This document shows positions 1,110 through 17,234 of a DNA stretch of 34,787 bases, in pieces. Under the pieces are notes generated by a model, which saw nothing but the letters and a program-made list of their open reading frames with translations, searched no databases and had not been told where the DNA came from. Origin of the DNA: an uncultured delta proteobacterium (GTDB lineage: Bacteria > RBG-13-61-14 > DRUE01); assembly GCA_903930515.1 (NCBI GenBank), contig CAIYYW010000022.1, positions 1 to 34,787 on the forward strand. The letters are read 5' to 3'. The number at the start of each line of letters is the position of its first letter. Position 1 is the first letter of the stretch. The position numbers were made by a program, and so were the translations under genes.

Positions 1110-2774
1110 TCAACGCTGCTCCAAAATCTCGTACACCTCAATCCTTCCGATCCGCATCTGCAGCCGATAGTTGTTTCCCAAAAATTTCGCCAGCTCCGGG
1201 AACTGCTCCGCCATCGCCTGCTTGAAGCTGTCGCTGGAAAAATTGAACAGCTCCGGATTGGTGGCCGGGGTTTCAATGGCAAAGAACCTGGGCCGCGCGG
1301 AAATCACCGCCCGGGTGTATTCTGCGATCCATTGCTTCTGCTGATCCGTGATGGATCCTCCATAGGGCTGGAGCAATAAATGGATCACGGAGAGGAACCG
1401 GGTGGGCAGTTTTCGCTCCAAAAGCAACGGAACCAGCGGGTCCTTGGCGAAATATTCAACCCCGTCCCCCGGCCGGAGCAAAGGCCGGAGCCGCTTCGCA
1501 ACCATCCGCTCCTGGGATGAGGGATTCAGCTCGCTCTCATAAGCCCGCTCAAAACTCCGGAAACCGTAGCGGGCCGCGAAAATCACCCGGTCCTGGCTCA
1601 GAATAGAAATCAGCAGGACCGCGACCGCGGAATAAAAAACCCCGGAAACCAGCCGGGACCGTCCGGATGAAAGCTGCGACCCCATCCAGCCCAGGCCGGA
1701 TCCGCTGAAGATCATCAGCAATCCCCAGATCGGAATCTGATGATAGTCAAAATACTTGCCCTGGAATTGATAGGAGATCAGCCCGGTCCCGAGTAATCCG
1801 ACCAAGGCCCAAATCAGGCCCCGGTCCTGGTCCTTTGGCCGGTCCCGCAATTTCAGCAAAATCCCGAACATCCCCGTGAGCAGGGCGACCGGAAGGGCCT
1901 GCCCGAAAATGAACAGGTCCGCGGCCAACACCAGCGCCCAATTCCTGATCCCGGAAACCGGGACCCGGGTGGCCTTGCTGTAAACATTAAAATTGAACCA
2001 GACCGTTGCCAAATATACTTCTTTCAGAGACCCCAGTCTCCAATAATATAAAATCACCAGCAAACTCGGTAATAAACAGCAAAACCCGAACAGCATCAAC
2101 CCGGCCCAAACCCGCCGGTCCTTTTTTCGCAAACCCTGAGCCAAAAACCAAATCCCGAACACCACCCAGCTCAATCCGAAGGTGGGCTTGATCAGAAAAA
2201 CCAACCCCAGCAAAAGACCGGTCACGCTCGCCCGCGCCCAAGGCCGATTTTCCAGGACCAGGCTCGCGCACAGGCCGGCCAGAAACAGCCATAAGACAAA
2301 ACCCTCCCGCTCGCCCGTGCCCCAGCTCCCTAAACCGTAATAATAAATACTGAAAAAAACACCGGCGATAAAACCGGAATGGCGGGCGGACGCTTGCGCC
2401 GCGGATACTGGGAGCGCGGACAGCGGGAGCGCAGACACCCTTGTCTGCGACAAGGCTGTTTTTTCAGTCAAATAAAAAATCATCCCGACCGAGCTTAGTT
2501 GGACCAGCAAGTCAAAAATCCTGAACCCCAAAATGCCCGGCCCGAATAACTCCAACGCCACCCGGTGCAAAATAAAAATGCCCGGAAAACTTAAATCCCA
2601 GGTCCCAGCGTATGGCGCCAAATGAAATTCCTTCCACGCCCACGCCTCATAGATGCAGATCGCCTGGTCCATCCCATAGTCGTACCAGAGGGTCAAGCTT
2701 AAAAAAAATCCCCCAACCAAAAGCGTCAGCCAGAACCAGCGATCCCCTTTGATTCCCTCCATCTCAATAACCAT
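1110..2774 (-). CDS. Polytopic membrane protein, GT-C glycosyltransferase-like
   Basis: A protein of about 554 residues with roughly 10-12 hydrophobic segments in the first 420 residues and a soluble C-terminal domain of about 130 residues. The first outside loop after the first membrane helix holds YDYGMDQAICIYEAW, the place where GT-C transferases of the ArnT/PMT type carry acidic catalytic residues. A role moving a sugar from a polyprenyl-phosphate donor is inferred from fold only; donor and acceptor are unknown. I chose the ATG at 2774, which has GGAGG upstream although at a long spacing; an upstream TTG at 2846 has no ribosome site. The hydrophilic loop near residues 110-125 (SALPLSALPVSAAQASA) comes from a palindromic DNA repeat inserted in the gene. 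It diverges from the phage cluster. Confidence 0.65.
   Translation of the reverse strand: MVIEMEGIKGDRWFWLTLLVGGFFLSLTLWYDYGMDQAICIYEAWAWKEFHLAPYAGTWDLSFPGIFILHRVALELFGPGILGFRIFDLLVQLSSVGMIFYLTEKTALSQTRVSALPLSALPVSAAQASARHSGFIAGVFFSIYYYGLGSWGTGEREGFVLWLFLAGLCASLVLENRPWARASVTGLLLGLVFLIKPTFGLSWVVFGIWFLAQGLRKKDRRVWAGLMLFGFCCLLPSLLVILYYWRLGSLKEVYLATVWFNFNVYSKATRVPVSGIRNWALVLAADLFIFGQALPVALLTGMFGILLKLRDRPKDQDRGLIWALVGLLGTGLISYQFQGKYFDYHQIPIWGLLMIFSGSGLGWMGSQLSSGRSRLVSGVFYSAVAVLLISILSQDRVIFAARYGFRSFERAYESELNPSSQERMVAKRLRPLLRPGDGVEYFAKDPLVPLLLERKLPTRFLSVIHLLLQPYGGSITDQQKQWIAEYTRAVISARPRFFAIETPATNPELFNFSSDSFKQAMAEQFPELAKFLGNNYRLQMRIGRIEVYEILEQR
2411..2455. repeat. Palindromic repeat embedded in coding sequence
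   Basis: Two near-identical 15-base units (GGGAGCGCGGACAGC and GGGAGCGCAGACACC, 13/15 match) lie side by side. The second runs into a hairpin CGCAGACA-CCCT-TGTCTGCG (2430-2449). An overlapping alternative hairpin CCTTGTC-TGC-GACAAGG (2439-2455) could form instead. The array adds an SALP-type repeat to the membrane protein without breaking its frame. Confidence 0.6.
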
Positions 2775-2904
2775 TATATTCAGTTTCCTCCCCCGCTTCC
2801 ACCCAATAGGGGTCCGAGGAACCGATGGCCCTCTGAATTGTTTCAAGTTCCGGGTTCAAGTTGCTCTTTTTCCCTTCTACTTTTACCCAGCTCCGGAAGA
2901 TTTC

Positions 2905-2988
2905 GTTCAGTCTAACTTAACAATTTGCCCAAATTGATAAGTGGTTGAAATTATGCGGGAATAAATTTTTTGTTAAGTCTGGCTTAAC
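2905..2988 (+). promoter_or_regulatory. Cluster of operator-like palindromes before the phage cluster
   Basis: The gap 2775-3196 holds no convincing gene and is visibly AT-rich around 2900-3010. Within it, GTTCAGTCTAACTTAAC (2905-2921) and GTTAAGTCTGGCTTAAC (2972-2988) match at 14 of 17 positions. The second is an inverted repeat (GTTAAG/CTTAAC) with centres 67 bases apart. Between them CAATTTG-CC-CAAATTG (2921-2936) is a perfect palindrome. A possible -10 box TATAAC lies at 2999-3004. The placement suggests regulation of the rightward structural genes, the leftward membrane protein gene, or both. No repressor gene is nearby. Confidence 0.5.
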
Positions 2989-3196
2989 ATTAAGGTTCTA
3001 TAACATTAGATCGGAAATTTGAGATTTGGGATATTATTCAAGGGCTTGGCGGAAATATATTCAAAAAACTCTATGTTACGATTTTCCTATTTATAGGGGG
3101 CATGGAGGTCGGGTGGCGGTGTTTAGTTACACTGAACGATATTTTTCAATAGGTCACGCGGAAGAATTCGCGCGGCCTGAGAAAGGAGAAAACTTG

Positions 3197-4540
3197 ATGC
3201 TGGGAATTGGGAGATGGAAGAGAAGGACGCGGGAGTTGGAGTTGGCTCTGGTCAAGGCCCAGGAATACATCACGGACATCCTGACCTTCCAGGCCGGGGA
3301 AAAGGCTCAGGGCATCAATGCCTCCCCGAATCCCTATGAGAGCCGGGAGAGCCTGGTGGCGGAGCTGGTGCGGAAATACAAGGGCTATGCCCGCTGGGGC
3401 AACCAGTTGATCCAGCGGATCGTTGACACCCGGGCCGCGTTCACCATGGCGGGCGGCCTCAAGGCAACGGTCAAGGCCCCGGGACAAGGACAGCCGGAAC
3501 TTTCCTTCATCCGCGAGTTCCTCGATCTGAACGAATTGGATGGTCAGTTCGGACAGCAGTTGGCGGTGGAGAAGGAACTGGAGGGACAGGTCCTGCTGGC
3601 GCTGGACTGGGACGAGGAGATTGAAAACGCGCGGGTGAAATTTATTTCCTGGAACGACACCCATTACCAGGCGCGGTATCGGGACGATTTATATCACCGG
3701 GTTTCAGGCATTTCCTATTTGGACCCGGACACCAAGGATGAGGTTGAGATCCCGGCGGAGCGGGCAATATTCCTCAAGTTCAACGCCCGGATCAACAGCC
3801 GGGAAGGGGTCCCCACCTTGAGCGGACTGCTGGTGGAGGCTGAGGATATAGACCGGGCGCTCCGGGACTGGCGCAAGCTGAACCAGTATTTCGCCTCTCC
3901 CACTCCCTTTTTCAAAACCAAGGACTTGCAAGAGGCCCGGGAGCTTTACCAGCATCTGTTAAGCCCGGGCATCAACTGGCGGATCGGGAAGGTGTTCGCG
4001 GGACCCGCGGATTTCTCGCTGGTGGAGATGGGGGGAGCCGGGGCGATAAGCATCCGACAGGAGATCGAGACCAAGATCAAAATCCTCGCCGGGGGATCGG
4101 GCGTGCCGGTGCAGTTTTTGGGCTTCCCCGAATTTATGAGCAACCGCGCCACCGCGGAGAACACCATGGAGCCGGTCGCGCTGATTTCAATCAGCGAGCA
4201 GAGGAGCTGGCATCGGGGTTTCCAGGAACTGTTTGACAAGGCGATTGAGTTGAGAAACCAAATGGTCTCTCCGCTGGAACCGGCTTGCCAAACAGGGTTG
4301 GCGGAGCCGATGATGAAGTTCATCACTCAGGCCCAGGTGGACCGCTTGATCCAGCTTTATTACCCGCTCTGGCAAGCCGGCGGGATCAATTTGAAAACCT
4401 TGCTCAGCCTGCTCCCGGACATTGACCCGGAAGTGGAGGCCGGGTTAGGCGGGCCGGACTCGCCTGAAGAATCCGCGGAAAAAGGAGCCAAAGAAATTCC
4501 CGATCCGGAACAGGAGGGAGGCGGCGATGAGAGCGAATAA
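3197..4540 (+). CDS. Phage portal protein
   Basis: A 447-residue protein fitting the portal, the dodecameric ring at the head-tail vertex through which DNA passes. Support comes from its length, from position as the first structural gene before the head protease, and from portal-like stretches: an early helical region, RALRDWRKLNQYFASPTPFF, then a long helical and wing region including GGSGVPVQFLGFP and NRATAENTMEPV, and a loose acidic tail ending GGGDESE. I chose the ATG at 3197 because GGAG lies 8-12 bases upstream; 57 upstream codons back to a TTG at 3026 look non-coding. The stop overlaps the start of a duplicated protease-gene fragment at 4527. No terminase gene precedes it, although terminase and portal are normally adjacent. 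Family assignment is by pattern, not by search. Confidence 0.8.
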   Translation: MLGIGRWKRRTRELELALVKAQEYITDILTFQAGEKAQGINASPNPYESRESLVAELVRKYKGYARWGNQLIQRIVDTRAAFTMAGGLKATVKAPGQGQPELSFIREFLDLNELDGQFGQQLAVEKELEGQVLLALDWDEEIENARVKFISWNDTHYQARYRDDLYHRVSGISYLDPDTKDEVEIPAERAIFLKFNARINSREGVPTLSGLLVEAEDIDRALRDWRKLNQYFASPTPFFKTKDLQEARELYQHLLSPGINWRIGKVFAGPADFSLVEMGGAGAISIRQEIETKIKILAGGSGVPVQFLGFPEFMSNRATAENTMEPVALISISEQRSWHRGFQELFDKAIELRNQMVSPLEPACQTGLAEPMMKFITQAQVDRLIQLYYPLWQAGGINLKTLLSLLPDIDPEVEAGLGGPDSPEESAEKGAKEIPDPEQEGGGDESE

Positions 4541-4546
4541 GCTGGT
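4516..4546 (+). repeat. Direct repeat, left copy, at LamG cassette junction
   Basis: A 31-base stretch spanning the portal stop and a protease-like start. It matches 6230-6260 with a single mismatch (G at 4524, A at 6238). Weaker similarity continues about 15 bases upstream (24 of 29 bases match between 4503-4531 and 6217-6245). It marks the left edge of the inserted cassette. Confidence 0.9.
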
Positions 4547-4586
4547 TCTGAACGCGGTCCGGTCTCGGATCAAGGAGAAATTATAA
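4527..4586 (+). pseudogene. 19-codon leader made from a duplicated protease start
   Basis: This tiny frame begins MRANKLVL, identical to the first eight residues of the head protease at 6241, then departs and stops at 4584-4586. Its start overlaps the portal stop. Its stop overlaps the LamG gene start (TAATG), with AAGGAGAAATTATAATG providing the ribosome site. It looks like a truncated copy of the protease 5' end left by recombination and now joining portal and LamG translation. A functional peptide is unlikely. Confidence 0.7.
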
Positions 4587-6067
4587 TGCGTATTTCAAAT
4601 TATCAGATTTCACCCGATCTCACCCGGCGGAGTTTCGCTATTTCGGGAATGAATACCGGCGAGGCGATTTGGTTGCTGTGGTTCGATGATCAGGGCCAAA
4701 CCTATGATAATTGGATCTATGCCGACTGCATTGTGGACGAAGAAGTAAATCCGGCTTCAAAGGTGATCTTTTTCGCCGCGCTCTACGACGAGGAAATGGT
4801 TCTCCTTGATGCTCAGGCGTTCGGAGAAAGAATTAATTTGAGCCTGATCCAGCCCGCGAGTTCCTGGGCTTTTGACGGTGTGGATTTAGAGCTTGACGGC
4901 GATGTTGGCAACCATACCGGCTGTTGTCGTCTCCGTCCCCGCTCTCTTGAGGCCAATGCCGCCGGCGATTGGCTTTCCGCCTATGTGCCTTTTGATGAGA
5001 CATCAGATCAATCCTACGAGGGAATGTTGCGTTGGCTGGACAAGGCTTATGGTGTGGAGATTGTGGGGGCGCGTAAATGTTTGTCCATTTCACCTTCAAT
5101 TAAATTCGGGAACCACAGCGCAAAAATCAGTGAAGGCCACGGAATGATCCGGTTCCCGCATGATGCCGAGAAATTCACCAACCTTTCGAAATTCACCATT
5201 GATCTCTGGTGGTGCCCCTCGAATTTGACCGGAGTCTATGGAGATATCATGCACTGCGAATGCGACATCAACGGAACAGGTTTTAAGCAATGGAGATTAA
5301 GTCGGGTAAATGCTCAGTTGGCTTTTTGCACCACCAATTCCGGAAATGTGGAAAACCAATTAGGAACCCAGGGTGTCACCCTGGAGGCTGGTCGGGCCTA
5401 CCATATCCGCCTGACTTACGATGGCACATTGACGGACGGTCATTGTTTGGCGACCATCTCGGTGGACGGAGTGAGATATGCCAACGGAACGAGTTGCAAA
5501 AAAATACCGTTGCCGACTTTTTACAATGCTCCGAGTCTGACTTTGGGATCGCGCTATATGAATTACCTCAGCGGAATTGCCGGTTTGGATATGTATCCTG
5601 CGGGTCAGGTATGCGCTGTCAATGACCTGGTGATTTTTCCCGGCGTGAATCTCCCCGCCACCTATGATCCGCCGACCGCTCCGTTTAAGCCCTTTGCCCT
5701 TTTGTCCGAACCCGCGACCATCACCTTTGACGCGGGGATCGCCGGCACTTTTGACAGCTCAACTTTTGCCGTGTCCGATCCGGCTCAATGTAATTCGGTA
5801 GTAGGCGGGCCGGGTTGGGAATTCAGGAGAAGCGTTGATTCTGGAGAGAGCTGGTCGGAGTGGATGACTTATGCAGACATTCAATCCCTGCCGGATGCCT
5901 CTGCCATTACCAGGATCATTTATCAGGCCCGTTGTAATTCCGACGGAGTGAGCTTTTGGTATCCGCTCTCTGAGGCCCGGATAGGTTTTAATCAAACCAT
6001 CCCGCCGATCCCCCTCCACCCCTATGCCGTGGTTCGGCGGGAGCCTGAAATCATTCCGAGATTTTAG
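4586..6067 (+). CDS. LamG/concanavalin-A-like phage surface protein (inserted)
   Basis: A 493-residue protein with no signal peptide. Residues 1-110 form a small beta-rich domain. About 150-370 resemble a LamG/ConA-like jelly roll (FTIDLWWCPS, GRAYHIRLTYDGT, ATISVDGVRY, PSLTLGSRY), a fold that usually binds glycans or adhesive ligands. Residues 380-470 look like another beta domain (GWEFRRSVDSGESWSEW). It is cysteine-rich for a phage protein. Base composition is lower in GC than its neighbours (about 31 of 60 bases at 5101-5160 against 40 of 60 at 6481-6540 by hand count), and it sits between portal and protease, where no such gene is expected. It is flanked by a 31-bp direct repeat, so I infer recent cassette acquisition. 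A role as a head-surface adhesin or displaced tail-fibre protein is a guess. Confidence 0.7.
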   Translation: MRISNYQISPDLTRRSFAISGMNTGEAIWLLWFDDQGQTYDNWIYADCIVDEEVNPASKVIFFAALYDEEMVLLDAQAFGERINLSLIQPASSWAFDGVDLELDGDVGNHTGCCRLRPRSLEANAAGDWLSAYVPFDETSDQSYEGMLRWLDKAYGVEIVGARKCLSISPSIKFGNHSAKISEGHGMIRFPHDAEKFTNLSKFTIDLWWCPSNLTGVYGDIMHCECDINGTGFKQWRLSRVNAQLAFCTTNSGNVENQLGTQGVTLEAGRAYHIRLTYDGTLTDGHCLATISVDGVRYANGTSCKKIPLPTFYNAPSLTLGSRYMNYLSGIAGLDMYPAGQVCAVNDLVIFPGVNLPATYDPPTAPFKPFALLSEPATITFDAGIAGTFDSSTFAVSDPAQCNSVVGGPGWEFRRSVDSGESWSEWMTYADIQSLPDASAITRIIYQARCNSDGVSFWYPLSEARIGFNQTIPPIPLHPYAVVRREPEIIPRF

Positions 6068-6240
6068 TGGACAAGGCCATTCTCAAGGATCAATTTTTTC
6101 CCCGCCGGCTCCGAGGCTGGAAGCTTCGGAAGCCCTGCGGCGCTTTGAATTGAGCGACCGGCCGGTCCGGTAATTCACAGCCCGGAAGTAACTGAAATTT
6201 TGGATGCGCTTTTGCAATCCGAGACACAAGGGAGGCGACG
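6068..6240 (+). pseudogene. Remnant sequence with a diverged portal gene tail
   Basis: No intact gene is present. In the frame of a portal C-terminus, 6216-6254 reads NPRHKGGDDESE then stop, matching the real portal end (DPEQEGGGDESE) in closing residues and in position over the protease start. Upstream, two other frames hold short open stretches (ending ELSDRPVR at about 6171 and SPEVTEILDALL running to about 6243), as expected of decayed coding DNA. I read this as scar tissue from a second portal-protease junction brought in with the LamG cassette. Confidence 0.5.
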
Positions 6241-6260
6241 ATGAGAGCGAATAAGCTGGT
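6230..6260 (+). repeat. Direct repeat, right copy, at LamG cassette junction
   Basis: Right copy of the 31-base repeat at 4516-4546, one mismatch. It covers the ribosome site and first seven codons of the intact protease gene. Confidence 0.9.
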
Positions 6261-7233
6261 ATTGAAAAACGGGGGGATCCAGGAGATGAGCGCGGAGCAG
6301 GTTGAGGAGCTGGTCGGGAAAGACCGCTACGGCTCACTCAAGAAAATCGACCCGCACCCGTTTTTCGCGGAGCTGTTGGTGGCGCACGAGGGGGTGAGCC
6401 GGGGGAAAATTCTCGGCGCGGGTTTGAACCGGCCGGCGGAAAAATTCTGGAGCAAAGACCGGATCCGGGAATTGGTGTCCCGGATCAAGACCGGGCCGGT
6501 CCCGGTTTACCTGTTCCACAACGCGGACAACCGGAGCCGCTCTAAAGTGGGCGAGGTGATCGCGTCGTATTGGCGGAAAGTGAAAGGGGCGTTTTCCGCG
6601 CTCGCGCTCATCTACATCTCGGACCGGAAGGTCCGGGAGATGATCAAGCAGGGCGAACTGGACATTTGCAGCTTGGAGGCGGAACTGGTGTTTGAGAAGA
6701 GGGAAAGCCCGAAGGGGGTCGCGGAATGGGTGGTGAACGCGATTGACCGGGTAAGCGGGCTGGCGCTGGGGTCAAGGGATTCCGCGAGGCCCGGGTTCGC
6801 GGGCGCCGCGGTGCTGGCGCAGGTGGAAGAGTTTGAGGATGACTTGAACGGACCGATCCCGGAGTTGGAGAAGAAGTTGAGCGAAAAGGAACAGGAACTG
6901 AGTCGGCTCAGGACCGAGTTGGAGCGGTATCAATCGGAGCGGGAAAAGCAGGAGCGGAAGCGGAGGGTGGAGGAGTTGGTGGACCGGGTTTTGAAGGATC
7001 GGAGTTTGAAGCAGGAGGAGCAGAAGCATCTGCTCCGGGAGGTGAGCGAGCGGATGGAGCTGAAGAACCCGGCCTCACCGCATCTGGAGCAGGAGGTGAA
7101 AAAGGAAACGGAGCTCTTGCTGGCCAGGCTGGCCGAGCTCAAGCGGGTTTACCAGAAACCGACGGAGATCCGGGCGCCGCTGGAACCGGAAAAAGCGGAG
7201 AGCGGCAATCCCCTGATCCCGCGAGAAGAGTAA
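6241..7233 (+). CDS. Head maturation protease fused to scaffold domain
   Basis: A 330-residue protein. Residues 35-180 have the layout of a herpes/HK97-type prohead serine protease: VPVYLFHN with likely catalytic His93, KVGEVIASYW, GAFSALALIYI, and GELDICSLEAEL with likely nucleophile Ser144. Residues 205-300 are a strongly charged coiled coil (ELEKKLSEKEQELSRLRTEL), the expected scaffold that shapes the procapsid and is then digested. Protease-scaffold fusions of this type are known in Mu-like (gpI) and HK97-like phages, and the next genes (DUF2190-type, then capsid) fit the Mu-like order. The start at 6241 is preceded by GGGAGG. Its 5' end was duplicated at 4527 by the LamG insertion; this copy is intact. 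Confidence 0.78.
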   Translation: MRANKLVLKNGGIQEMSAEQVEELVGKDRYGSLKKIDPHPFFAELLVAHEGVSRGKILGAGLNRPAEKFWSKDRIRELVSRIKTGPVPVYLFHNADNRSRSKVGEVIASYWRKVKGAFSALALIYISDRKVREMIKQGELDICSLEAELVFEKRESPKGVAEWVVNAIDRVSGLALGSRDSARPGFAGAAVLAQVEEFEDDLNGPIPELEKKLSEKEQELSRLRTELERYQSEREKQERKRRVEELVDRVLKDRSLKQEEQKHLLREVSERMELKNPASPHLEQEVKKETELLLARLAELKRVYQKPTEIRAPLEPEKAESGNPLIPREE

Positions 7234-7256: not shown

Positions 7257-7625
7257 ATGGTTCAGGAACAAGGATTGAAACTGCGCACCAAGCTGGAAAG
7301 CGCCAAGACCTTGAAGGCGGCGACCGGCGAGGAAGAGAGTTACAGCGCGGGCGAGATGATCAAGGTTAATGACACGATCGGGATGGTGGTGGAGGATGTG
7401 GAAGCCAATTCCGAATTCGTCCTGCTCTACGAGGCCGAGAAGGTGGTGGCGCCCAAAGCCACCGGAACGGGCATCAGCTTCGCGGTTGGGGACAATGTTT
7501 ATTACGACGCCACGGCCAAGAAGGTCACCAGCGTATCAACCGCGAACACTTTATGCGGCAAGGCGTTGGAATCCGCGGGAGACAGTGATCCCGAGGTCCT
7601 GATTGACCTGATCGTGCTGGCCTGA
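7257..7625 (+). CDS. DUF2190-type capsid decoration/cement protein
   Basis: A 122-residue beta-rich protein with no signal peptide. VNDTIGMVVEDVEANSEFVL, ATGTGISFAVGDNVYYDATAKKVT and CGKALESAGDSDPEVLIDL follow the DUF2190 pattern of small phage head proteins, whose members include capsid decoration proteins. In Mu-like phages a gene of this family lies between protease and major capsid genes, exactly as here. AAGGAGG sits 9 bases before the ATG. Its likely role is stabilising the expanded head; no enzymatic role is indicated. Confidence 0.72.
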   Translation: MVQEQGLKLRTKLESAKTLKAATGEEESYSAGEMIKVNDTIGMVVEDVEANSEFVLLYEAEKVVAPKATGTGISFAVGDNVYYDATAKKVTSVSTANTLCGKALESAGDSDPEVLIDLIVLA

Positions 7626-7650: not shown

Positions 7651-8643
7651 ATGATGAGAGATAAAATGATTTCGGAATGGAACAAGGTTGAACTCAAGAC
7701 CGACCCGGGACAGCGCCAGTTCCTGGAAGCGGTGGAGTATTACTTGCGCAAGCCGGCCCTGATCGCGAAGAAGCTCCGGGGCAAAGCCCAGGAGTTCACG
7801 GTTCCGTCGGACTTTCCCCAGAGCGCGGTGGACGCGATTGCCAAGTTCCATCAGGTGGACGCGCCGGACCTGGGCTGGGAGCAGGTGTTTGAGGTGATTG
7901 ATTTCACCCAGACCAAAAAGAACGGGTTTGAAATCCTTGATGTCGGCACCGGCCTTTCTTTCCGCGCGATCAAGCCGGGAGAGAAGGCGGAGGTTTACAA
8001 GATCTCCGGAGAAGTTACCCCGGTCAACTTCGACCTGTTCGGAGGCGCGCTCGGCTGGAGCAAGCTCTGGTTTGACGACCAGGAATACTGGAAGCTGGAG
8101 GACGCGGCGAAGGAATTCCGCGCCAAATGGTACGCGCAGAAGGCCCAGGCGCATTACGACCTGATCAGCGCCTCCCGGCCGGACAGCGATGTGTCCTGGC
8201 AAGGCGGAGTCAACGATTCCAAGGCGGTCCGCGACGCCGAGACCATCAACTGCGCCTGCGCGGAAATCCTCAACGATCTTTCCGGGCTGGGATACGAGGT
8301 CAGCCCGGGCGCGAGCTTGGTGATCGTGGCTCCGGTTCAGCTCTGGGCCAGGCTCCGGAACGCCCTGAACATCACCCTGAGCGATACCGCTTCCAGCCAG
8401 ATCAACTTCAATGTCAGCCTGGCCGTGACCACCCGGCTCAAGAACCAGGCGCTCTCCGGCGCGGACAATTCTCATTACTTCGTCTGTCTGCCCGGCCGCA
8501 AGATCAAGAGCGGACTCCGGATGGACCTTACCATCCTGAGCGAGCCGGACATCCTGGCCTATGCCGAGACCGTGGCCGGTTGGGGAAGATACGGAGCCGC
8601 GATCGGAGAAGCCGAACAGCTCAGAAGGTGCGCCACCGTCTAA
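7651..8643 (+). CDS. Major capsid protein (Mu gpT-like, HK97 fold expected)
   Basis: A 330-residue protein after the decoration protein and before a strong terminator. Residues 45-60 hold an N-terminal arm; 70-130 (GWEQVFEVIDFTQTKKNGFEILDV, FRAIKPGEKAEVYKISGE) resemble the extended-loop region, and 150-320 a helical and beta core with a Trp-rich segment (ALGWSKLWFDDQEYW). Length and position agree with Mu gpT-type capsid proteins; I recognise the family by context and overall pattern rather than a signature motif. The strong GGAGGAGGAG ribosome site directly upstream suits a highly made protein. No N-terminal delta-domain is obvious, consistent with scaffold being supplied by the protease fusion. 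Confidence 0.75.
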   Translation: MMRDKMISEWNKVELKTDPGQRQFLEAVEYYLRKPALIAKKLRGKAQEFTVPSDFPQSAVDAIAKFHQVDAPDLGWEQVFEVIDFTQTKKNGFEILDVGTGLSFRAIKPGEKAEVYKISGEVTPVNFDLFGGALGWSKLWFDDQEYWKLEDAAKEFRAKWYAQKAQAHYDLISASRPDSDVSWQGGVNDSKAVRDAETINCACAEILNDLSGLGYEVSPGASLVIVAPVQLWARLRNALNITLSDTASSQINFNVSLAVTTRLKNQALSGADNSHYFVCLPGRKIKSGLRMDLTILSEPDILAYAETVAGWGRYGAAIGEAEQLRRCATV

Positions 8644-8656
8644 GCCACTGATGATG

Positions 8657-8713
8657 GGATCGGGGCGGGCGACTTTGCCCTCCCTTCCGGCCCGCCCTGA
8701 TCCGATCTTTTTT
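8657..8713 (+). terminator. Intrinsic terminator after the capsid gene
   Basis: Arms 8657-8670 (GGATCGGGGCGGGC) and 8690-8703 (GCCCGCCCTGATCC) pair over 14 bases with one G-U, around a 19-base loop. Six T follow at 8708-8713. It begins 14 bases after the capsid stop codon, inside the structural operon, and would give extra capsid mRNA relative to tail genes. Confidence 0.85.
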
Positions 8714-8725
8714 GCGGAGAGAACA

Positions 8726-8842
8726 ATGGAAAAAAATTTTGTGTTTGTGGACCGGGCTGACGGGGGCAAGTCGCGGGTGACTGTTGAGAGGCCCGCGCGC
8801 GATTTTGAAAATAACTATCCGCGTTTTTCAAAGGAGGAATAA
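8726..8842 (+). CDS. Small phage protein, 38 residues, unknown
   Basis: The frame MEKNFVFVDRADGGKSRV... ends RFSKEE and has GGAGAG upstream of its ATG; its stop overlaps the next start as TAATG. It lies between capsid and DUF1320-type genes, where Mu-like phages often encode one small protein. The sequence is basic and acidic mixed, without membrane segment. It is short enough to be missed by automated gene calling. The function is unknown; a head-tail joining or translation-coupling role is possible. Confidence 0.6.
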   Translation: MEKNFVFVDRADGGKSRVTVERPARDFENNYPRFSKEE

Positions 8843-9594
8843 TGAGCGCGCTTCCGAAATATCGGCAGATGGATTATGCCCGGTTTGACTTTCGGATTTC
8901 CAACGGACTCGGCTCCTACTTGGAGCCGGACTGGGACGATCCGGGCCTGGGGGTGGAGTTTTATGACAGTCAGGGCATCCTGAGATTCACCGCGAACCAA
9001 ACCAGCAGCCCCCCGCTCGTTTCCGGCTCAGACCGACAGGGGATTTTTCTGGCCCTGGAAGGGATCAATCTGGAAAATTTCGCGCTCGGCGTTTGCGACG
9101 CGCGTCTTTCCTGCAGGGTCAACGCCGAGCAGGTCCTGCCCTGCCCCACGGTGATGGAGGCCTTCCAGGTAATCCCGGACAGCGGGACCGAGCCGGTTTA
9201 CACCACGGCCTCCAAGGTCAAAAGCGAATTGCCCGCGGAAATTCCGGCGCAATTAACCGACCCGGTGATTGAGCAATATATCTTTGACGCCAGCCGGAAG
9301 ATTGACGCCGGTCTCTCCGGTCTTTACCCGACGCCGTTTCCGGGCATTGAGCAGAACCCGGCCACGCCCGGCTTGATTGAACGGCTCTGCCGCAAGCTCG
9401 CGCTGTCGGAGAGTTTGATCTTCCTGGGGACCTTGAACCAGATGGAACTGAACCCTTTGCTGGAAGAGCGGGCAATGGCCGAGTTGGACCGGATCCGCAA
9501 AGGCGAACTCCGGATCGCCGGCTTTGAGCCCAACCTCTCGGTTTATCAGGGAATGATCCTGCCGGAAGAAAATACCGGCGATTACCTGGATTGA
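8842..9594 (+). CDS. Head-tail connector, DUF1320 (gp36-like) with extra N-terminal domain
   Basis: A 250-residue protein. The C-terminal half (about 135-245: DPVIEQYIFDASRKIDAGLSG, GLIERLCRKLALSESLIFL, AMAELDRIRKGELRI) matches the DUF1320 pattern of Mu gp36-like proteins, helical adaptors that sit below the portal. Ordinary members are about 140 residues. Here an added 125-residue beta-rich N-terminal domain precedes it (LEPDWDDPGLGVEFYDSQG, GIFLALEGINLENFALGV), which I do not recognise and which may be exposed at the neck. Translation is probably coupled to the 38-aa gene by TAATG. Confidence 0.68.
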   Translation: MSALPKYRQMDYARFDFRISNGLGSYLEPDWDDPGLGVEFYDSQGILRFTANQTSSPPLVSGSDRQGIFLALEGINLENFALGVCDARLSCRVNAEQVLPCPTVMEAFQVIPDSGTEPVYTTASKVKSELPAEIPAQLTDPVIEQYIFDASRKIDAGLSGLYPTPFPGIEQNPATPGLIERLCRKLALSESLIFLGTLNQMELNPLLEERAMAELDRIRKGELRIAGFEPNLSVYQGMILPEENTGDYLD

Positions 9595-9608: not shown

Positions 9609-10136
9609 ATGGTGCTATCGGATGGAGACTATTTAAAGGTCGCGGAGAAAATCGTGGATACGCTCCTTACGGACACCGGCTCCGGGGGATTGCGGGAAGG
9701 GCCGAACCCGCCGGTGAAAACGATTGAGCCGAGGATCCGGCGGGAAGCCAAGCTTTATTCCAAATACGAGCTTCCCCTGATCGGAGTGGAGGTGGCGAAA
9801 AAAAGAGAAGAGCCTTCCCCTTCCAGCCGGATCATTGACAAAGTCTTTGAGCTGGAATTCCTGATCCTCTGCCGGGGAGGAGACCGCGAGCTGGAATCGG
9901 ACCGGGCCAGGAAAATTTCCAGCCGGCTGGAAAAGCTGCTCAAGGAACAGAATCTTCCGGACCGGCAATTCTCCGGCCTGCCCGCGTTGATTGAAGGCTC
10001 CCAGGGAGTGCTGGTCGCCCGGCTGACCGAAACCAATTTTGAAAGCAGGTTTTTTGAAGACGCGGCCGGGAAAAATCCCGAGGTGGTTTCCCTGGTCTCC
10101 GCGGAGGTGATCATCCCGGCGCAATTGTTATTGTGA
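9609..10136 (+). CDS. Tail completion/terminator protein candidate
   Basis: A 175-residue protein between the connector and the tail tube genes, the site of gp37-like (DUF1834) or tail-terminator proteins that cap the tube and dock it to the head. It has an alpha/beta appearance: an N-terminal helix (DGDYLKVAEKIVDTLL), strand-like LPLIGVEVAKK, FELEFLILCRGG, a long helix (ESDRARKISSRLEKLLKEQ) and closing strands (VVSLVSAEVIIPAQLLL), consistent with that fold. AAAAAGGAGTAACCA precedes the ATG. The assignment is mainly from order. The stop codon lies within a perfect palindrome at 10128-10151. Confidence 0.55.
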   Translation: MVLSDGDYLKVAEKIVDTLLTDTGSGGLREGPNPPVKTIEPRIRREAKLYSKYELPLIGVEVAKKREEPSPSSRIIDKVFELEFLILCRGGDRELESDRARKISSRLEKLLKEQNLPDRQFSGLPALIEGSQGVLVARLTETNFESRFFEDAAGKNPEVVSLVSAEVIIPAQLLL

Positions 10137-10151
10137 GATACATCACAATAA
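10128..10151. promoter_or_regulatory. Perfect palindrome matching a CRP/FNR-type site
   Basis: TTATTGTGA, a six-base spacer GATACA, then TCACAATAA is a perfect 9-bp inverted repeat. Its core TGTGA-N6-TCACA equals the Escherichia coli CRP half-site consensus. It covers the preceding stop codon and lies 44 bases before the tail tube gene, so it could be an operator for an internal promoter or an mRNA hairpin. No T-run follows. Confidence 0.5.
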
Positions 10152-10194
10152 GAATCCGGTCTGAGCAAAACGAGCAAAAGGAGGCTTCCCTTCA

Positions 10195-11481
10195 ATGTCC
10201 AAAAACTTTCTGGAAAATATGGGAAAGGTCGCGCTATTCCGGACCCGGGAACAAAACCTGGGAGAGCCGGCGACCGATAATGGGGTGAGTATGGCCTTTG
10301 ATCTCGGCTCCGGGGTCAATCTGGCGAGGACGGTGGAAGACGACCGGGATCAGCTCCGGGGGGTTGACCTGGCCACCCGGTTATATCTCGCCGGGCAGAC
10401 CGCGGGCGGGAAACTGAGCCAGAAGCGGGCCAAGCCGGACTTTCTTACTTTCGCGCTCGGCTGCTTTTTCGGCCAGGTCAACACGGAGCAGGTCGCGGCC
10501 GGGATCTACCAGCACACCATCACTCCTTCCAGCGCCCTGTCTTTGCCCGCGTTCACCCTGCTCCAGCGCCGGGGAGACGCCATTCTCAAGGAAAGGTTTT
10601 CCGGGAACCTGGTGGAGGGGTTCAGTCTGGAGTTGGGAGAAAGCTGGGTGGGCCTGAGCTCGGATCTTCTCGGGATCGGGAAGCGCGAAGTGAATTACCA
10701 AAATGAGATCGTGTCGGCTCCGGCCAATTCCACCCAGATCACCTTGAGCGGGAACGGGGTGGAAGGCGCCACGGCCTCGGAGCGGTTGGAAAATGTGTTC
10801 CGGATCCGGGCCAAGGATGCCGGGTCCAATTTTTGGGAAGTATGCCCGGCGGCGAGCGTGAGCGGAGGCGCCCCGGCCGTGATCACGCTCCAGGAGCCGG
10901 TGGGACAAAGCTCCGACCTGATTGAATTCCACCTTGACTATCTCCCGACCGAGCCGGAGTGGTGCGATTTTCCGGCCGAGCTGGACGAGTCGCCGCTGAA
11001 ACTGGTGGACGCGAATTTGATCGTGGACGGATACTTCACCGGCAGCCAGGTCCAGGGCGGGGAAGTCATCTCCAACGACCTGCTCGGCTTTTCCATCCAG
11101 GGAAAGAACAACCTGGAAATCCGCAAGCTGGCGGACGGGTCGAATAATCCCTGGGCGAGCGAAGCCGCGCGCAGCCAGCGGGAGCTGACCGTCAAGCTCT
11201 CCGAGCGGCTCCGCAACACCATCCGGCAATGGCAGGCCGATCATCCGGAGACCGAGCGGATCAGCCTTTATCTTAAAATCCGCGGCGCGGAAATCGTCCC
11301 CCAAAGCGGATATTATTTCGGCGCGGATTTGATCTTCCCCCAATGCGGAATCCTGAACGATCCGATCTCGGTCAACGGCAAGTTTCTGGCCCAGGAGGGA
11401 GACCTGCTGGTGATGGACGATATAAATTACAACGGCGTTTTCATCCGGACCTGGAACCGGGTGAGCGAATACCTGGGATAA
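10195..11481 (+). CDS. Major tail tube protein
   Basis: A 428-residue protein that fits the tail tube subunit, which stacks as rings around the tape measure. DRDQLRGVDLATRLYLAGQTAGGKLSQKRAKPDFLTFALGCFFG and TLLQRRGDAILKERFSGNLVEGFSLEL resemble the tail-tube family found in siphophages of the B3/D3112 type. A central beta-rich insert (about 175-260, ITLSGNGVEGATASERL, VITLEP-like) may be a surface domain, making it longer than minimal tube proteins of 150-250 residues. Position just before the chaperone pair is canonical. A good ribosome site AGGAGG lies upstream at a somewhat long spacing. Confidence 0.72.
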   Translation: MSKNFLENMGKVALFRTREQNLGEPATDNGVSMAFDLGSGVNLARTVEDDRDQLRGVDLATRLYLAGQTAGGKLSQKRAKPDFLTFALGCFFGQVNTEQVAAGIYQHTITPSSALSLPAFTLLQRRGDAILKERFSGNLVEGFSLELGESWVGLSSDLLGIGKREVNYQNEIVSAPANSTQITLSGNGVEGATASERLENVFRIRAKDAGSNFWEVCPAASVSGGAPAVITLQEPVGQSSDLIEFHLDYLPTEPEWCDFPAELDESPLKLVDANLIVDGYFTGSQVQGGEVISNDLLGFSIQGKNNLEIRKLADGSNNPWASEAARSQRELTVKLSERLRNTIRQWQADHPETERISLYLKIRGAEIVPQSGYYFGADLIFPQCGILNDPISVNGKFLAQEGDLLVMDDINYNGVFIRTWNRVSEYLG

Positions 11482-11491
11482 AGGAGAGCAA

Positions 11492-11878
11492 ATGCCGATT
11501 GAACTCAAAGACCAAGAGAGCCTGGCGCTGAACCTGGAAGGACAGGAAATTGAAGTTTATTTCCGCAGCCCGAACGCCCCGGAGATGGTCCGCTATCTCG
11601 CCTCCACCCTTTCCGGCAGCGGCCCGGAGGCAATGGAGCAGATGCTCTCGGCCGGGATCTCGCTCGCCCAATCCTGTCTGCTGGGGATCAAGGAAGGAGA
11701 CATCGTGATTGTGGATCAAGGCCGGGCCAGGGGTTTGGTCACCGACCCGGCTCGGCCCGGATACGATCACAACTGGAAGCAACTGCTGAAAGAGAAAATC
11801 CCGGGCTTGCTCCTGATGCTCGCGAACCGCCTGGTGAAAAACGCGGCATCGGAGTTGGAGGTTCGGGAAAAAAACTGA
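11492..11878 (+). CDS. Tail assembly chaperone, short (gpG-like) form
   Basis: A 128-residue protein between tail tube and tape measure, the position of lambda gpG. It is helical with a strand-rich start (LALNLEGQEIEVYFRSP), MVRYLASTLSGSGPEAMEQML, and a basic C-terminal helix. Such chaperones coat the tape measure during tail assembly and are not in the finished particle. It ends at TGA 11876-11878, directly after an A AAA AAC slippery heptamer, so a fraction of ribosomes should continue into the frame ending at 12174, giving a product of about 227 residues. AAAGGAG lies close before the start. Confidence 0.75.
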   Translation: MPIELKDQESLALNLEGQEIEVYFRSPNAPEMVRYLASTLSGSGPEAMEQMLSAGISLAQSCLLGIKEGDIVIVDQGRARGLVTDPARPGYDHNWKQLLKEKIPGLLLMLANRLVKNAASELEVREKN

Positions 11879-11900
11879 CCCGGGAGCTGGACCGGCTCCT
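11857..11900 (+). promoter_or_regulatory. Programmed -1 ribosomal frameshift signal
   Basis: Three expected parts are present. The heptamer A AAA AAC is at 11869-11875, in phase with zero-frame codons AAA AAC, immediately before the TGA stop. An internal Shine-Dalgarno-like GGAGG lies at 11857-11861, seven bases upstream. A hairpin GGAGC/GCTCC (11883-11887 with 11895-11899, plus an outer G-U) begins about seven bases downstream. This matches the arrangement known from bacterial dnaX and phage tail genes. Confidence 0.88.
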
Positions 11901-12174
11901 TCATCTTGAGCCCGCAGATTGCAGGAGCTGTCCGGAACCAAAGAGCAAATATCAGGAATGGACCTGTGCCCATTGCCCGGAATTCCGGCTGGACCATATC
12001 AGCCCGGGAACCTGGCGCTTGCTGGAAATCCGGAGGCTGAAGCTGGCCGGGTATCCCTTCCGGGCCGACGATCTGAAATATCGCGATTGGCTCTTGCTGG
12101 GAGCGCTGGAAGAAAAGCTGGGGTCGGAGCAAAAGAAGAATGAGCTGGAACTAACCCTGCTGAAAACCATTTAA
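11875..12174 (+). CDS. Tail assembly chaperone extension (gpT-like) by -1 frameshift, zinc-ribbon type
   Basis: After slippage the ribosome reads CTG at 11875 and 99 codons without a stop, to TAA at 12172-12174. The frame has no start codon of its own in a useful place. The peptide begins LTRELDRLLHLEPADC and contains a CX2C-X11-CX2C arrangement (CRSC and CAHC), followed by FRLDHISPGTWRLLEIRRLKLAG and a helical end. The four cysteines suggest a small zinc-binding knuckle; similar short cysteine-bearing extension proteins occur in siphophages. The gpGT-type fusion is expected to bring the tape measure to the tail tube. The open frame of exactly the right length in the exactly right phase makes a sequencing error unlikely. 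Confidence 0.82.
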   Translation: MTRELDRLLHLEPADCRSCPEPKSKYQEWTCAHCPEFRLDHISPGTWRLLEIRRLKLAGYPFRADDLKYRDWLLLGALEEKLGSEQKKNELELTLLKTI

Positions 12175-12203
12175 TTTTCAGCGCGGTTTGAAGGAGAAAA
12201 GGG

Positions 12204-12788
12204 ATGCCTGAATTTGGGAATGAAGCGGGGAACAAAAGCGAGCTGGACCAACTGCGAGCGAATAAACAGGCGGAGTTGGAAATCATCAAACAGGCGGAAG
12301 AGCAGCGGCATCAGTTGGAGCAGCATTTTTCCGAGCTGACCCGCAAGGTCAAGGAGCGGAACCTGGCCTCCGAAATCAATGCCTATCAATCCGCGGCCGG
12401 GTCCGTGGCCAAGTTTTTAGGCGCCGGGATCAAGCAACAGGCGATGATCATGATCCCGTTTGAGATCGCGGAGGCGACCAAGGAGATGGCCGACTTTTTC
12501 GCCACCAAAGACCCCACTCATCTGGCCTCCAGCCTGAAACACTTGCTCGCGGTCAAGCAATACGCGGATGCCGCCAAAACCTCCGCCGGCTCGGGCGCCT
12601 CCGGCTCCGGGGGTTCTTCCACTGCCCCTCCCGCCGAGTCGCCGGAAGACCAGACCAGACACAAAGCCCGGGTGGTCGTTAATGTGGGAGATGGGGTAGT
12701 GATCAATCCCAAAGAATTTGTCCGGCAGTTGGTGGATGGCTTGAACGAGGCCTACCGCGATAATGTCCGGATTGAATTCGCACAATAG
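12204..12788 (+). CDS. Very short tape-measure-like tail protein
   Basis: A 194-residue protein in the tape-measure slot between the chaperone pair and distal-tail gene. Residues 10-65 are a charged coiled coil (ELEIIKQAEEQRHQLEQHF). About 65-120 is a hydrophobic helical stretch (SVAKFLGAGIKQQAMIMIPF), then a Gly/Ser/Pro linker, then a terminal domain (VVVNVGDGVVINPKEFVRQL) typical of tape-measure C-termini as I know them. Tape measures of non-contractile phages usually run 600-1200 residues, at roughly 0.15 nm tail length per residue, so this one would allow a tail tube of only about 30 nm. It may be a minimised tape measure, an internal deletion, or a different tail-core protein. Confidence 0.6.
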   Translation: MPEFGNEAGNKSELDQLRANKQAELEIIKQAEEQRHQLEQHFSELTRKVKERNLASEINAYQSAAGSVAKFLGAGIKQQAMIMIPFEIAEATKEMADFFATKDPTHLASSLKHLLAVKQYADAAKTSAGSGASGSGGSSTAPPAESPEDQTRHKARVVVNVGDGVVINPKEFVRQLVDGLNEAYRDNVRIEFAQ

Positions 12789-12797
12789 GAGTGAAAA

Positions 12798-13550
12798 ATG
12801 ACTCTGAACGCCAAACCGATTTTTATGTGGGACAATTTATTGGCCCGGCCGGACGCGCAACTGAGCGCGACCAGTTCTGACCCGGATCATCCGGTCCAAT
12901 ACCTGGCGGACTGGAGAGAGTATCTGACCTGGCGGGCCGGGTCCGGCGCTCCCCAAAACCTTGAAATATCTTTTCCAGAGCCGAAGCCCGCGTCCGCATT
13001 GTGCATTTACCATCACAACCTCTCCAGCGTGGAGACCGTAACCCTTTCCGGCTCTGCCAACGGTTCGGTTTGGGAGGAAATCCTCAGTCTCAATCCCAAC
13101 TCCGACCAGACCATCCTGAAATTGTTCAACCAGGTTTCTTGCCGATATTACCGGCTGGCAATGGGCTTTTCACCGGCTTGCGAAATCGGTTTGCTCTTCC
13201 TCGGCGATTACCTGGAATTCCCAAGCTGGACCGCGTCCGGCTTTGATCCCAACCAGGAAGAGTTGCTGGTGGAGAAAGGGAAAAGCGAAGAAGGGTTTTT
13301 GCTCGGAGCCGCGCTCCGGTGCCGGAAAAGAAGAATGGCCCTGGACTTCCGATATTTATCCGATTCCTGGGTGCGAAATACTTTGATCCCGTTCTGGAAA
13401 AATCATCCGCCCAAGCCGTTCCTGTTCGCCTGGGACTATCAAAATCATCCGGAGGAAACCTATTTGGTGGAATTGGCGAAGCCGGAGCTGGGCCTACCAT
13501 ATCAGCCGGTTTTTCGGTCATTGAGTTTGGAATTGGAGGGAAGGGTATGA
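12798..13550 (+). CDS. Distal tail protein with discoidin-like domain
   Basis: A 250-residue protein after the tape-measure gene. Residues 25-125 look like a galactose-binding (F5/8 type C, discoidin) jelly roll: QNLEISFPEPKPASALCIY, VETVTLSGSANGSVWEEIL, CRYYRLAMG. Residues 135-250 resemble the distal-tail adaptor (Dit or DUF2460-like) that closes the tube: LEFPSWTASGFDP, RMALDFRYLSDSWVRNTLIPFW, PVFRSLSLELEGRV. Together they suggest a baseplate ring with a sugar- or surface-binding domain. GGAG lies 9 bases before the ATG. Its stop overlaps a 25-codon mini-frame at 13547 as ATGA. The domain reading is by pattern only. Confidence 0.62.
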   Translation: MTLNAKPIFMWDNLLARPDAQLSATSSDPDHPVQYLADWREYLTWRAGSGAPQNLEISFPEPKPASALCIYHHNLSSVETVTLSGSANGSVWEEILSLNPNSDQTILKLFNQVSCRYYRLAMGFSPACEIGLLFLGDYLEFPSWTASGFDPNQEELLVEKGKSEEGFLLGAALRCRKRRMALDFRYLSDSWVRNTLIPFWKNHPPKPFLFAWDYQNHPEETYLVELAKPELGLPYQPVFRSLSLELEGRV

Positions 13551-13624
13551 AGTTGAAGATTGGGAATTGGGGAATTCTCCGATTCCTAACCCCTACTCCC
13601 CAACTCCCGGAGGTGAAGCGATGA
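13547..13624 (+). CDS. Possible 25-residue coupled mini-gene
   Basis: The frame MKLKIGNWGILRFLTPTPQL... starts in an ATGA overlap with the distal-tail stop and ends in an ATGA overlap with the tail-hub start. It contains an imperfect hairpin, GGGAATTGGGG (13562-13572) with CCCCAACTCCC (13598-13608), and GGAGG at 13609-13613 for the hub gene. It may be a translated linker keeping ribosomes coupled, or filler sequence that happens to be open. Confidence 0.35.
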   Translation: MKLKIGNWGILRFLTPTPQLPEVKR

Positions 13625-15882
13625 GTTTTGAGAATTATAGAGACGCTCTGAGCCGCAAGCCGGTCTGGCTGGTCAAGCTGCATCTGGACCAATGCGCGAA
13701 TATTTTCCAGCTCGCTCCTTGCGCGGCGACCGGCGCTTCTGTTTGTTATTACACTTACAGCACCTGCCGGGATCGCGAGCATTACTGCAAGGCGGATTCC
13801 ATTTTGAAATTGAGCAGTTGCGATTTTCAGCCCAGGTGGCTCGGGCCGAGCCCGCTCCCGCTTCTGGAAAAAGTCGGGTATGTGCCGATTGAGATTGACG
13901 CGAAATGCAACCTGGCCCGGCGGGGAGAGATGGTCCTGGAGCTTTCGGACGATCCTCCTCATTATTACGCGAACCCGTCCAAGGTTTACGGCGGACTGAC
14001 GATCAGCAACCTGGAAACCGCGGGCAGTTTCTGGAAAAATTTATTGGCGAGGAATCCCAATTACTATCACCGCCTGGCGGAAGTGTATCTCGGGTTTGAG
14101 GGATTGGAGGAGTCGGAGTTCCGGCTCTTTTTCCGGGGACTGATTGAAAAAATAGAATACCGGGAGTTCGGGGTCGCGGTCACGGTCAAGGATTTGCTCA
14201 AGAACCTGGACCGGCTGAGCCATCCCAAAGCGGGCGACAATTGCAAGCTGTCCCAGGATTATTCGGGGGGAGCTACGGTCAAGGTATATCAGGGAGATCA
14301 GCTTTCCGATTGGGGGATCATCAAATCCGAGGGCGGCAACCATATCAAGTTTTCCGGCAAGACCGGCCCGGACCCCCAGGGAATCTGGACCCTCCAGGAT
14401 GCCGCCTTTTGCTTCGGCGGTTCCGGCACCGTCCCCACCGGAAAAATGGTCAAGCAGGGGTTGGTTTACGCCCGGGACAATAACAGTATTGATGAGGGGT
14501 TTTCCGCGGACTGGATCCTGCTGGACTTGATTTGCGAGCGAGCCCGGATCAGCGCGGACTACCTGGAACTGGTGGATGTTGGCGCAACTTTAGGTTCAGG
14601 AATTGCCGCCGACGCAACCTCCATCCCGGTGAGCGACGCGAAATTATTCCCGGACCAGGGCGTGATCAAAATTGATAATGAACTGATCATCTACAAAGGC
14701 AAAAACGGAAACAACCTGGTGATTCAAGGGACCGGCGCGGGGGATTCCGTGCCGCTCTTTTACCAACACTTCCGCGGGGCGTTCCGAACCACCGCGGCTT
14801 CGCACGATTCCGGCGCCCCAATTTATCTCCCCCGGATCACCTATGAGGCGATGACCTGGCTGGGGGGCACTCGCTACCGGGCCGAGTTGGAGGAGCCGAC
14901 CAAGGTCCAGGAACTGTTGAACCGGATTTGCGAGCAGGCCCTGATTCAATGCTGGCAAAACGAGGAGTCCAACATAGAATTCCGCGCCATCTGCCCGCCT
15001 CAGCCGGGCGAGGCGATCAAGGAACTGAACGACCAGGAGCATCTGCTTGAGCAATCGGTATCGGTCCTGGACGACCGCGAACTGCAATCCAGCCGGGTGA
15101 TCGTTTATTACAAGCCCCTGGAGGCCGACCCGGGAGCGAAGCCCAAGGGTTATCAATGCGCGCTGGTGGAAGTGGAAGAAGATATTGAAAATGAAAACTG
15201 GTTGGGCGAGGAGAAGCCGAAAATATTTTTCGCCGACTGGATTTACCGGTCCACCGAAGCAGTGTCTCTCGCGAGCAGGTATTTGTTGAAATATAAGGAA
15301 GGCGCGCGCCAGCTCAAGTTCAGCCTGGAGTTGAAAGACCTGGACCTGGAAGTGGGAAAACTCTTCTGGGTCAAGACCGGCAAGATTCTGAATGAGCGGG
15401 GAGAGAAAAGCCGGCTCCTGTTCCAGGCGCTTAAAAAGCAGTTCCGCTCGGCGGGAAGAATTGAGATTCTGGCCCTGGAGACCAAGCTGGACCTGATCTA
15501 CGCATATATCGGACCGGAAAACCCGGTTTTGAGCGAGACCATCAGCTCCGGAGAAACCACGATCCAGCTTGCGCTTACCGCCAATACCTACCAGGACGAT
15601 GATTTCGCAAGCAGCGGCCAGATCCGGATTGAGGACGAGAAAATCAGTTATGCGAGCAAGGGCTACGACAGCCAGACCCAGGTGCTGACTTTATCCGGAT
15701 GCGACCGCGGCATCCTGGGAACTTCGCCGGTTGAACATAATGCCGGGGTGGACGCTTTGCTTCTTGATTATGGCGCGAGCCGGCCGGCCCAAGATAAATC
15801 GGCCTGGAACAGCGATGAAAATAATCTGCTGGATTCAGATGGAGACGGAGTTGGAGATCGGGAAGGATATTATATTTATTGA
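13621..15882 (+). CDS. Tail hub/baseplate protein (DUF2163/BR0599-like)
   Basis: A 753-residue protein at the hub position of gene-transfer-agent-like and B3-like tails. The N-terminal 70 residues hold six cysteines (25, 34, 42, 49, 56, 67; FQLAPCAATG, YYTYSTCRDREHYC), reminiscent of cysteine-bearing hub proteins such as that of the Rhodobacter capsulatus gene transfer agent, for which an iron-sulfur cluster has been reported as I recall. The middle has repeated beta modules: two stretches (about 320-370 and 640-700: FPDQGVIKIDNELIIYKG and SSGQIRIEDEKISYASKG) are alike. The C-terminus ends with DSDGDGVGD, a calcium-binding loop as in thrombospondin type 3 or EF-hand-like repeats. I chose the ATG at 13621 for its adjacent GGAGGTG; an in-frame start 18 codons upstream lies in a linker. 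Confidence 0.66.
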   Translation: MSFENYRDALSRKPVWLVKLHLDQCANIFQLAPCAATGASVCYYTYSTCRDREHYCKADSILKLSSCDFQPRWLGPSPLPLLEKVGYVPIEIDAKCNLARRGEMVLELSDDPPHYYANPSKVYGGLTISNLETAGSFWKNLLARNPNYYHRLAEVYLGFEGLEESEFRLFFRGLIEKIEYREFGVAVTVKDLLKNLDRLSHPKAGDNCKLSQDYSGGATVKVYQGDQLSDWGIIKSEGGNHIKFSGKTGPDPQGIWTLQDAAFCFGGSGTVPTGKMVKQGLVYARDNNSIDEGFSADWILLDLICERARISADYLELVDVGATLGSGIAADATSIPVSDAKLFPDQGVIKIDNELIIYKGKNGNNLVIQGTGAGDSVPLFYQHFRGAFRTTAASHDSGAPIYLPRITYEAMTWLGGTRYRAELEEPTKVQELLNRICEQALIQCWQNEESNIEFRAICPPQPGEAIKELNDQEHLLEQSVSVLDDRELQSSRVIVYYKPLEADPGAKPKGYQCALVEVEEDIENENWLGEEKPKIFFADWIYRSTEAVSLASRYLLKYKEGARQLKFSLELKDLDLEVGKLFWVKTGKILNERGEKSRLLFQALKKQFRSAGRIEILALETKLDLIYAYIGPENPVLSETISSGETTIQLALTANTYQDDDFASSGQIRIEDEKISYASKGYDSQTQVLTLSGCDRGILGTSPVEHNAGVDALLLDYGASRPAQDKSAWNSDENNLLDSDGDGVGDREGYYIY

Positions 15883-15892
15883 GCGCAGACCG

Positions 15893-15925
15893 TCCTGTCC
15901 ATCCGCCCTGGGCGGATCGACAGGA
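15893..15925. repeat. Strong palindrome between tail genes
   Basis: TCCTGTC and GACAGGA (outer, 7 bp) flank ATCCGCCC-T-GGGCGGAT (8-bp inner stem, 15901-15917), separated by one mismatch. It fills the gap between the hub stop and the next gene. It has no T-run and could be a REP-type insertion or an mRNA-processing hairpin. Confidence 0.55.
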
Positions 15926-15944
15926 TGCGGCACAGGAGGGATAG

Positions 15945-16430: not shown

Positions 16431-16437
16431 GGGAAAA

Positions 16438-16698
16438 ATGGAAACGGTCTGGATAAATATCTTAAATATCTTTTTCACCGGAGCCCTTGCCGTGCTCGGC
16501 CTGCTCTGGCGGGAAATGAACAAAAAGGTCAGCCACATGGTCAGCCGCGAGCTGTGCCAGGAGCGCAGCGATTGGATCACGCAGCAATTGGAACACCAGG
16601 AGCAGATCCTGCTCCGCACCGAGCAGCGGCTGATCCGGATTGAGAAAAAAATGGCGTATCAAAACGGGGAGGCGGGAAATGAGTTTGATCATTATTGA
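16438..16698 (+). CDS. Small membrane protein with coiled coil, lysis-module type
   Basis: An 86-residue protein with one membrane segment at about 4-24 (WINILNIFFTGALAVLGLLW) and a charged coiled-coil tail (ERSDWITQQLEHQEQILLRTEQRLIRIEKK). Small phage proteins of this shape are found next to endolysin genes, for example XhlA-like hemolysins or holin partners, though XhlA has the membrane helix at the other end. Its 3' end overlaps the amidase start by 20 bases, so the two are probably translated together. Confidence 0.5.
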   Translation: METVWINILNIFFTGALAVLGLLWREMNKKVSHMVSRELCQERSDWITQQLEHQEQILLRTEQRLIRIEKKMAYQNGEAGNEFDHY

Positions 16699-17215: not shown

Positions 17216-17234
17216 CCGCAATTCGGAGGCGCTT

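Follow-up and report, generated by a model that had tools for sequence, protein, structure and literature searches.

Binding-protein exchange is well known for tail fibres, and phage genomes also carry morons, extra genes that are exchanged at gene borders. In the gene transfer agent of Rhodobacter capsulatus (RcGTA), head fibres attach the particles to the polysaccharide capsule of the cell (PMC7296036), and Hoc of phage T4 is a capsid decoration with variable binding domains and a conserved C-terminal part (PMC10385173). Gene transfer agents are made of tailed-phage-derived proteins, are fully endogenized and often encoded at several loci, are inherited mostly vertically and co-diversify with their hosts, and package and deliver random host DNA in a head too small for their own genome (PMC9662315). 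Here, we describe a head-tail gene cluster of an uncultured delta proteobacterium in which one gene of the head module, of lectin type, varies most among an otherwise conserved set. The window that we analysed, 34,787 nucleotides long, is one contig of a genome assembled in 401 contigs. Our set includes three genomes of its phylum-level group: the window's own, a same-genus relative (uncultured delta proteobacterium AlinenSedimentsD2_bin-1424) and a same-order relative (Deltaproteobacteria bacterium RBG_13_61_14). The capsid profile was searched in 386 genomes, these three and 383 others.

A conserved head-tail cluster with its terminase elsewhere

The cluster spans ~15 kb, from 3197 to about 18084, with cellular genes on both sides, namely an electron transfer flavoprotein on the upstream side and glycosyltransferase-like and acyltransferase genes on the other (Table 1). 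The names portal and protease are putative, being based on gene order and weak matches. We saw neither an integrase nor a replication gene within the cluster. Its left border is provisional, the contig left of ~3000 crossing a repeat found otherwise at contig ends. This ~210-bp intergenic repeat, which precedes the portal gene, recurs near the ends of contigs C199, C217, C269, C302 and C359 of the window's genome. It contains dyads (AACTTAACAA / TTGTTAAG), and its conserved end, GTTACGATTTTCCTATNTATAGG, occurs six times in that genome; a shared promoter region and a mobile repeat are both conceivable readings.

Table 1 Features of the head-tail cluster and of the insert at its portal/protease-type junction
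Feature	Position	Strand	Basis or remark
~210-bp intergenic repeat upstream of portal gene	2897-3104	+	right end also precedes same-genus portal
Portal-type gene, 447 aa	3197-4540	+	gene order; Portal_Mu E=0.0012, below cut-off
Direct repeat copy 1: portal end, Shine-Dalgarno, protease-type start	4503-4552	+	repeat comparison
19-codon truncated protease start, overlapping portal stop and LamG start	4527-4586	+	frame
Inserted LamG (concanavalin A-like) gene, 493 aa	4586-6067	+	PF13385
Laminin_G_3 domain, residues 188-324	5147-5557	+	Pfam
Non-coding stretch, without match	6068-6216	+	sequence comparison
Direct repeat copy 2, restoring protease-type start region	6217-6266	+	repeat comparison
Protease-type gene, 330 aa	6241-7233	+	gene order; PHROG of unknown function only
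Phage cement (head decoration) protein	7257-7625	+	PF09956, phrog_122
Major capsid protein	7651-8643	+	profile matches
Intrinsic-terminator-like hairpin	8657-8713	+	14-bp stem, T6
38-codon ORF in relatives' LamG slot	8726-8842	+	frame
Head-tail connector, Mu Gp36-like	8842-9594	+	phrog_195
Rest of cluster: tail genes, distal tail-type, hub (771 aa), amidase, membrane protein	9609-18084	+	
Short tape-measure-like protein, 194 aa	within 9609-18084	+	named by position

The capsid profile detected the cluster once in each genome of the group and in none of the 383 others, and its gene order is the same in the three. No terminase was seen within the window, and in all three genomes the terminase large-subunit gene sits outside the cluster. 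In the window's genome it lies on a 5.7-kb contig (C400) behind ParB-like and methyltransferase-like frames (2523-5400 for the set of frames), a separate location that may partly reflect assembly; in the same-genus genome it is cut by a contig end (C729); in the same-order genome it shares a contig with the portal, at a distance of ~10 kb, on the opposite strand and with cellular-type genes between. A spore-photoproduct-lyase-type gene stands before the same-genus terminase. On contig C80 of the same-order genome (45.4-47.9 kb), methyltransferase-like, ParB-like and terminase frames resemble those of the window's genome, and contig C1 has another phage terminase region, which belongs to a different family, is unrelated to the cluster and adjoins a portal-like gene. 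Other phrog_2 matches were set aside on inspection of their frames (PhoH-like and helicase-like genes, and a terminase region from another family).

Family matches of the cement, capsid, connector and terminase point to a tailed-phage ancestry, and the location of the terminase at loci apart from the cluster is as expected for an endogenized system dispersed over several loci. Gene distances in the cluster follow kinship, as far as three taxa tell, and dN is well below dS in the portal (0.15 against 1.08), the capsid (0.13 against 0.63) and other genes. The single copy per genome of the group, the separate terminase and purifying selection together suggest a gene-transfer-agent-like domesticated element, not an ordinary prophage. 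The label "phage" given in a preliminary description of this DNA is doubtful for the cluster, which looks vertically kept and has its terminase elsewhere.

A duplicated junction around an inserted LamG gene

The preliminary description had recognised a LamG cassette between two copies of the portal/protease junction, and most of its observations hold. The direct repeat comprises 50 nt with 43/50 identical positions (86%), and its best run with at most one mismatch is 32 nt long, against a maximum of 18 in 100 dinucleotide shuffles of the 5-kb region. In the 20 to 60 nt outside both copies identity is at about chance level, similarity ending at the repeat borders. As had been claimed, each copy contains a portal-type end and a protease-type start: in copy 1 the portal stop (4538-4540) is overlapped by a frame starting at 4527, and copy 2 runs into the protease-type gene at 6241. 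The portal-type and protease-type genes flanking the insert are both open, in agreement with the claim that they were kept intact. Between the copies, the 19-codon frame (MRANKLVLNAVRSRIKEKL) read earlier as a truncated protease start indeed diverges from the protease-type protein past MRANKLVLN and, as also noted, joins the LamG start via TAATG. By contrast, the decayed stretch said to end in a portal tail is confirmed for its end only: the resemblance covers no more than the ~24 nt that precede the second start (18/23), whereas 6068-6216 has no match in the sequences compared, including the portal and the relative's region downstream of LamG. A role of this stretch as hairpin regulator was rejected, its fold energy (z -1.1) being barely better than that of shuffles.

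The proposed insertion is supported by the comparison that the preliminary description had suggested. The site is empty in both relatives, same-genus and same-order, in which the portal and protease-type genes overlap directly, showing that the insertion of LamG left its neighbours unharmed. In the variable upstream part of the repeat, the two copies of the window agree at 18/23 positions, but each agrees with the same-genus relative at only 10/23 and 9/23. Given this greater likeness between the two copies, the junction duplication most likely arose in the window's lineage.

The product of the inserted gene matches Pfam PF13385 (E=8.5e-8, above the cut-off). The gene carries its own AAGGAG at 4572, and no promoter or terminator above chance level was found around the insert; LamG should therefore be read with the head genes. 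From its domain and gene position, the product would most likely be a sugar-binding protein of the head surface. Its predicted structure (mean pLDDT 31) is unusable for fold or capsid attachment, and PDB matches of the LamG profile to beta-propellers, covering ~35 profile positions in repetitive chains, were discounted.

LamG homologues in the relatives and their divergence

Both relatives have a homologous LamG-type gene between the major capsid and connector genes, encoding 378 aa and preceded by a 75-aa gene in the same-genus relative, and encoding 373 aa and preceded by a glycosyltransferase-like gene in the same-order one. Against PF13385, one of the two proteins gives E 9.4e-6, just under the cut-off, and the other no match. 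The window's LamG aligns with the same-genus protein over 338 aa up to its end (E 1.5e-9; 25% identity) and more weakly with the same-order protein; a PEII.RF-type C-terminal ending is common to the homologues. In the window, the place between capsid and connector holds no LamG, only the 38-codon ORF, whose start resembles the 75-aa gene preceding the same-genus LamG, and a search with the window's LamG found no second LamG gene in its genome. The location of the relatives' homologues in the other slot implies that an existing component changed its slot or was replaced, such that the adhesin was not new to the lineage. The notion of a usual slot is based on two genomes, and that of the cluster on three.

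In the same-order relative, the gene between capsid and LamG (locus positions 13774-14490) is glycosyltransferase-2-like, which suggests that the capsid/connector slot takes varied cargo. The terminator-like hairpin 3' of the capsid gene is present in the same-genus relative too, and the post-capsid hairpin of the same-order relative is devoid of a T-run. LamG lies upstream of this hairpin in the window and downstream of it in the same-genus relative; if the hairpin terminates transcription, the slot change would raise the dose of LamG.

LamG also differs from the rest of the cluster in its divergence. In 11 other cluster genes, window and same-genus relative are always the closest pair, with 62-82% identity (the portal-type protein is 78% and 68% identical to those of the two relatives), whereas their LamG proteins share only 27%. 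The closest LamG pair is that of the two relatives (34%; 99.85% of column bootstraps). This concerns above all the C-terminal part, 49% identical between the relatives and 26-28% to the window, as the domain part is about equally distant in all three pairs.

Origin of the insertion

Among the possible histories, we give about an even chance to a replacement with slot change: a diverged LamG entered the portal/protease-type junction by recombination, and the LamG of the usual slot was lost. We infer that the window's lineage would have received this diverged gene at that junction of the conserved cluster, with recombination probably leaving the ~50-bp duplication, which would supply a separate end for the portal gene and a separate start and ribosome site for the protease-type gene. 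LamG of the capsid/connector slot would have been lost and the incoming gene, its start overlapping at TAATG, transcribed with the head operon, its product most likely coating or spiking the head and binding a cell sugar polymer. Searches of viral contigs, phages and sampled genomes yielded no donor of LamG; scans of viral contigs with portal, protease, LamG and capsid queries returned no relatives, the short degenerate patterns used limiting their reach.

Alternatively, although in our opinion rather unlikely, LamG might have moved within the cluster, by a tandem duplication reaching from the portal end across the old LamG, deletion of the spare genes and fast divergence of the moved copy. 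Such a move would account for the piece of this lineage's own portal tail retained in repeat copy 2, for a usual slot now without LamG and for a homology that reaches the final residues, and fast evolution after it would equally lower LamG identity. However, 6068-6216 resembles neither the portal nor the relative's region downstream of LamG, and the C-terminal part has remained much more similar between the relatives than to the window. This pattern fits best with replacement by a diverged homologue, which it favours over a simple move.

The preliminary description had taken LamG as an addition foreign to such a cluster, and a moron-type adhesin that a temperate phage had newly acquired, unrelated to any LamG of the cluster, would agree with the long direct repeat, the empty sites and the low GC and poor codon fit of the gene. 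Its GC of 51.6% (GC3 56.5%) is the lowest among the 28 cluster and host genes measured, so that the lower GC reported is correct; nevertheless, all three genomes have their lowest GC in LamG, as far as genes were measured, and a trait of the gene itself cannot date the insertion or mark a recent arrival. Since the head module of both relatives contains homologous LamG genes of the same odd composition, and every one of the group's three genomes carries the cluster with its terminase elsewhere, we consider a foreign addition improbable. Least credible of all is a decaying prophage remnant with the insert as neutral debris, for although a 149-bp non-coding stretch and a truncated start adjoin LamG, the cluster genes are open, dN is far under dS in head genes and gene order is the same in three genomes.

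Comparison with known systems

Our phage tblastn search matched only head genes of Microcystis phage MACPNOA1 (KY697807), whose cement and capsid are homologous to those of the cluster and in the same order (31% identity each); its portal and protease regions remain unmatched at E 0.05, and LamG has no match in it. As for morons, LamG sits as an insert between two conserved structural genes, both of which it leaves unbroken, but it differs from them in having no promoter or terminator of its own above chance and in having a homologue elsewhere in the same module. The resemblance in sequence pattern to Hoc resides in the variable binding part and conserved C-terminal part of the two relatives' LamG proteins, although LamG stands in place of Ig-like domains and the C-terminal part has diverged in the window.

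Tentatively, and at somewhat less than even confidence, the cluster may represent an undescribed gene-transfer-agent lineage kept by descent in the bacterial group of Deltaproteobacteria bacterium RBG_13_61_14 with its terminase elsewhere, whose head-borne lectin would be exchanged between lineages, changing slot and altering which cells receive DNA. If so, the recipient-choosing part would evolve fastest, and the three genomes allow a direct test. Homology to RcGTA was not detected, the portal and capsid profiles matching no RcGTA chain among PDB sequences. The counterpart here of its head spikes and fibres (Rcc01079/Rcc01080), borne by a phage-derived particle, would be the LamG protein encoded inside the head operon, a candidate that, as a head-borne polysaccharide binder, would share their role.
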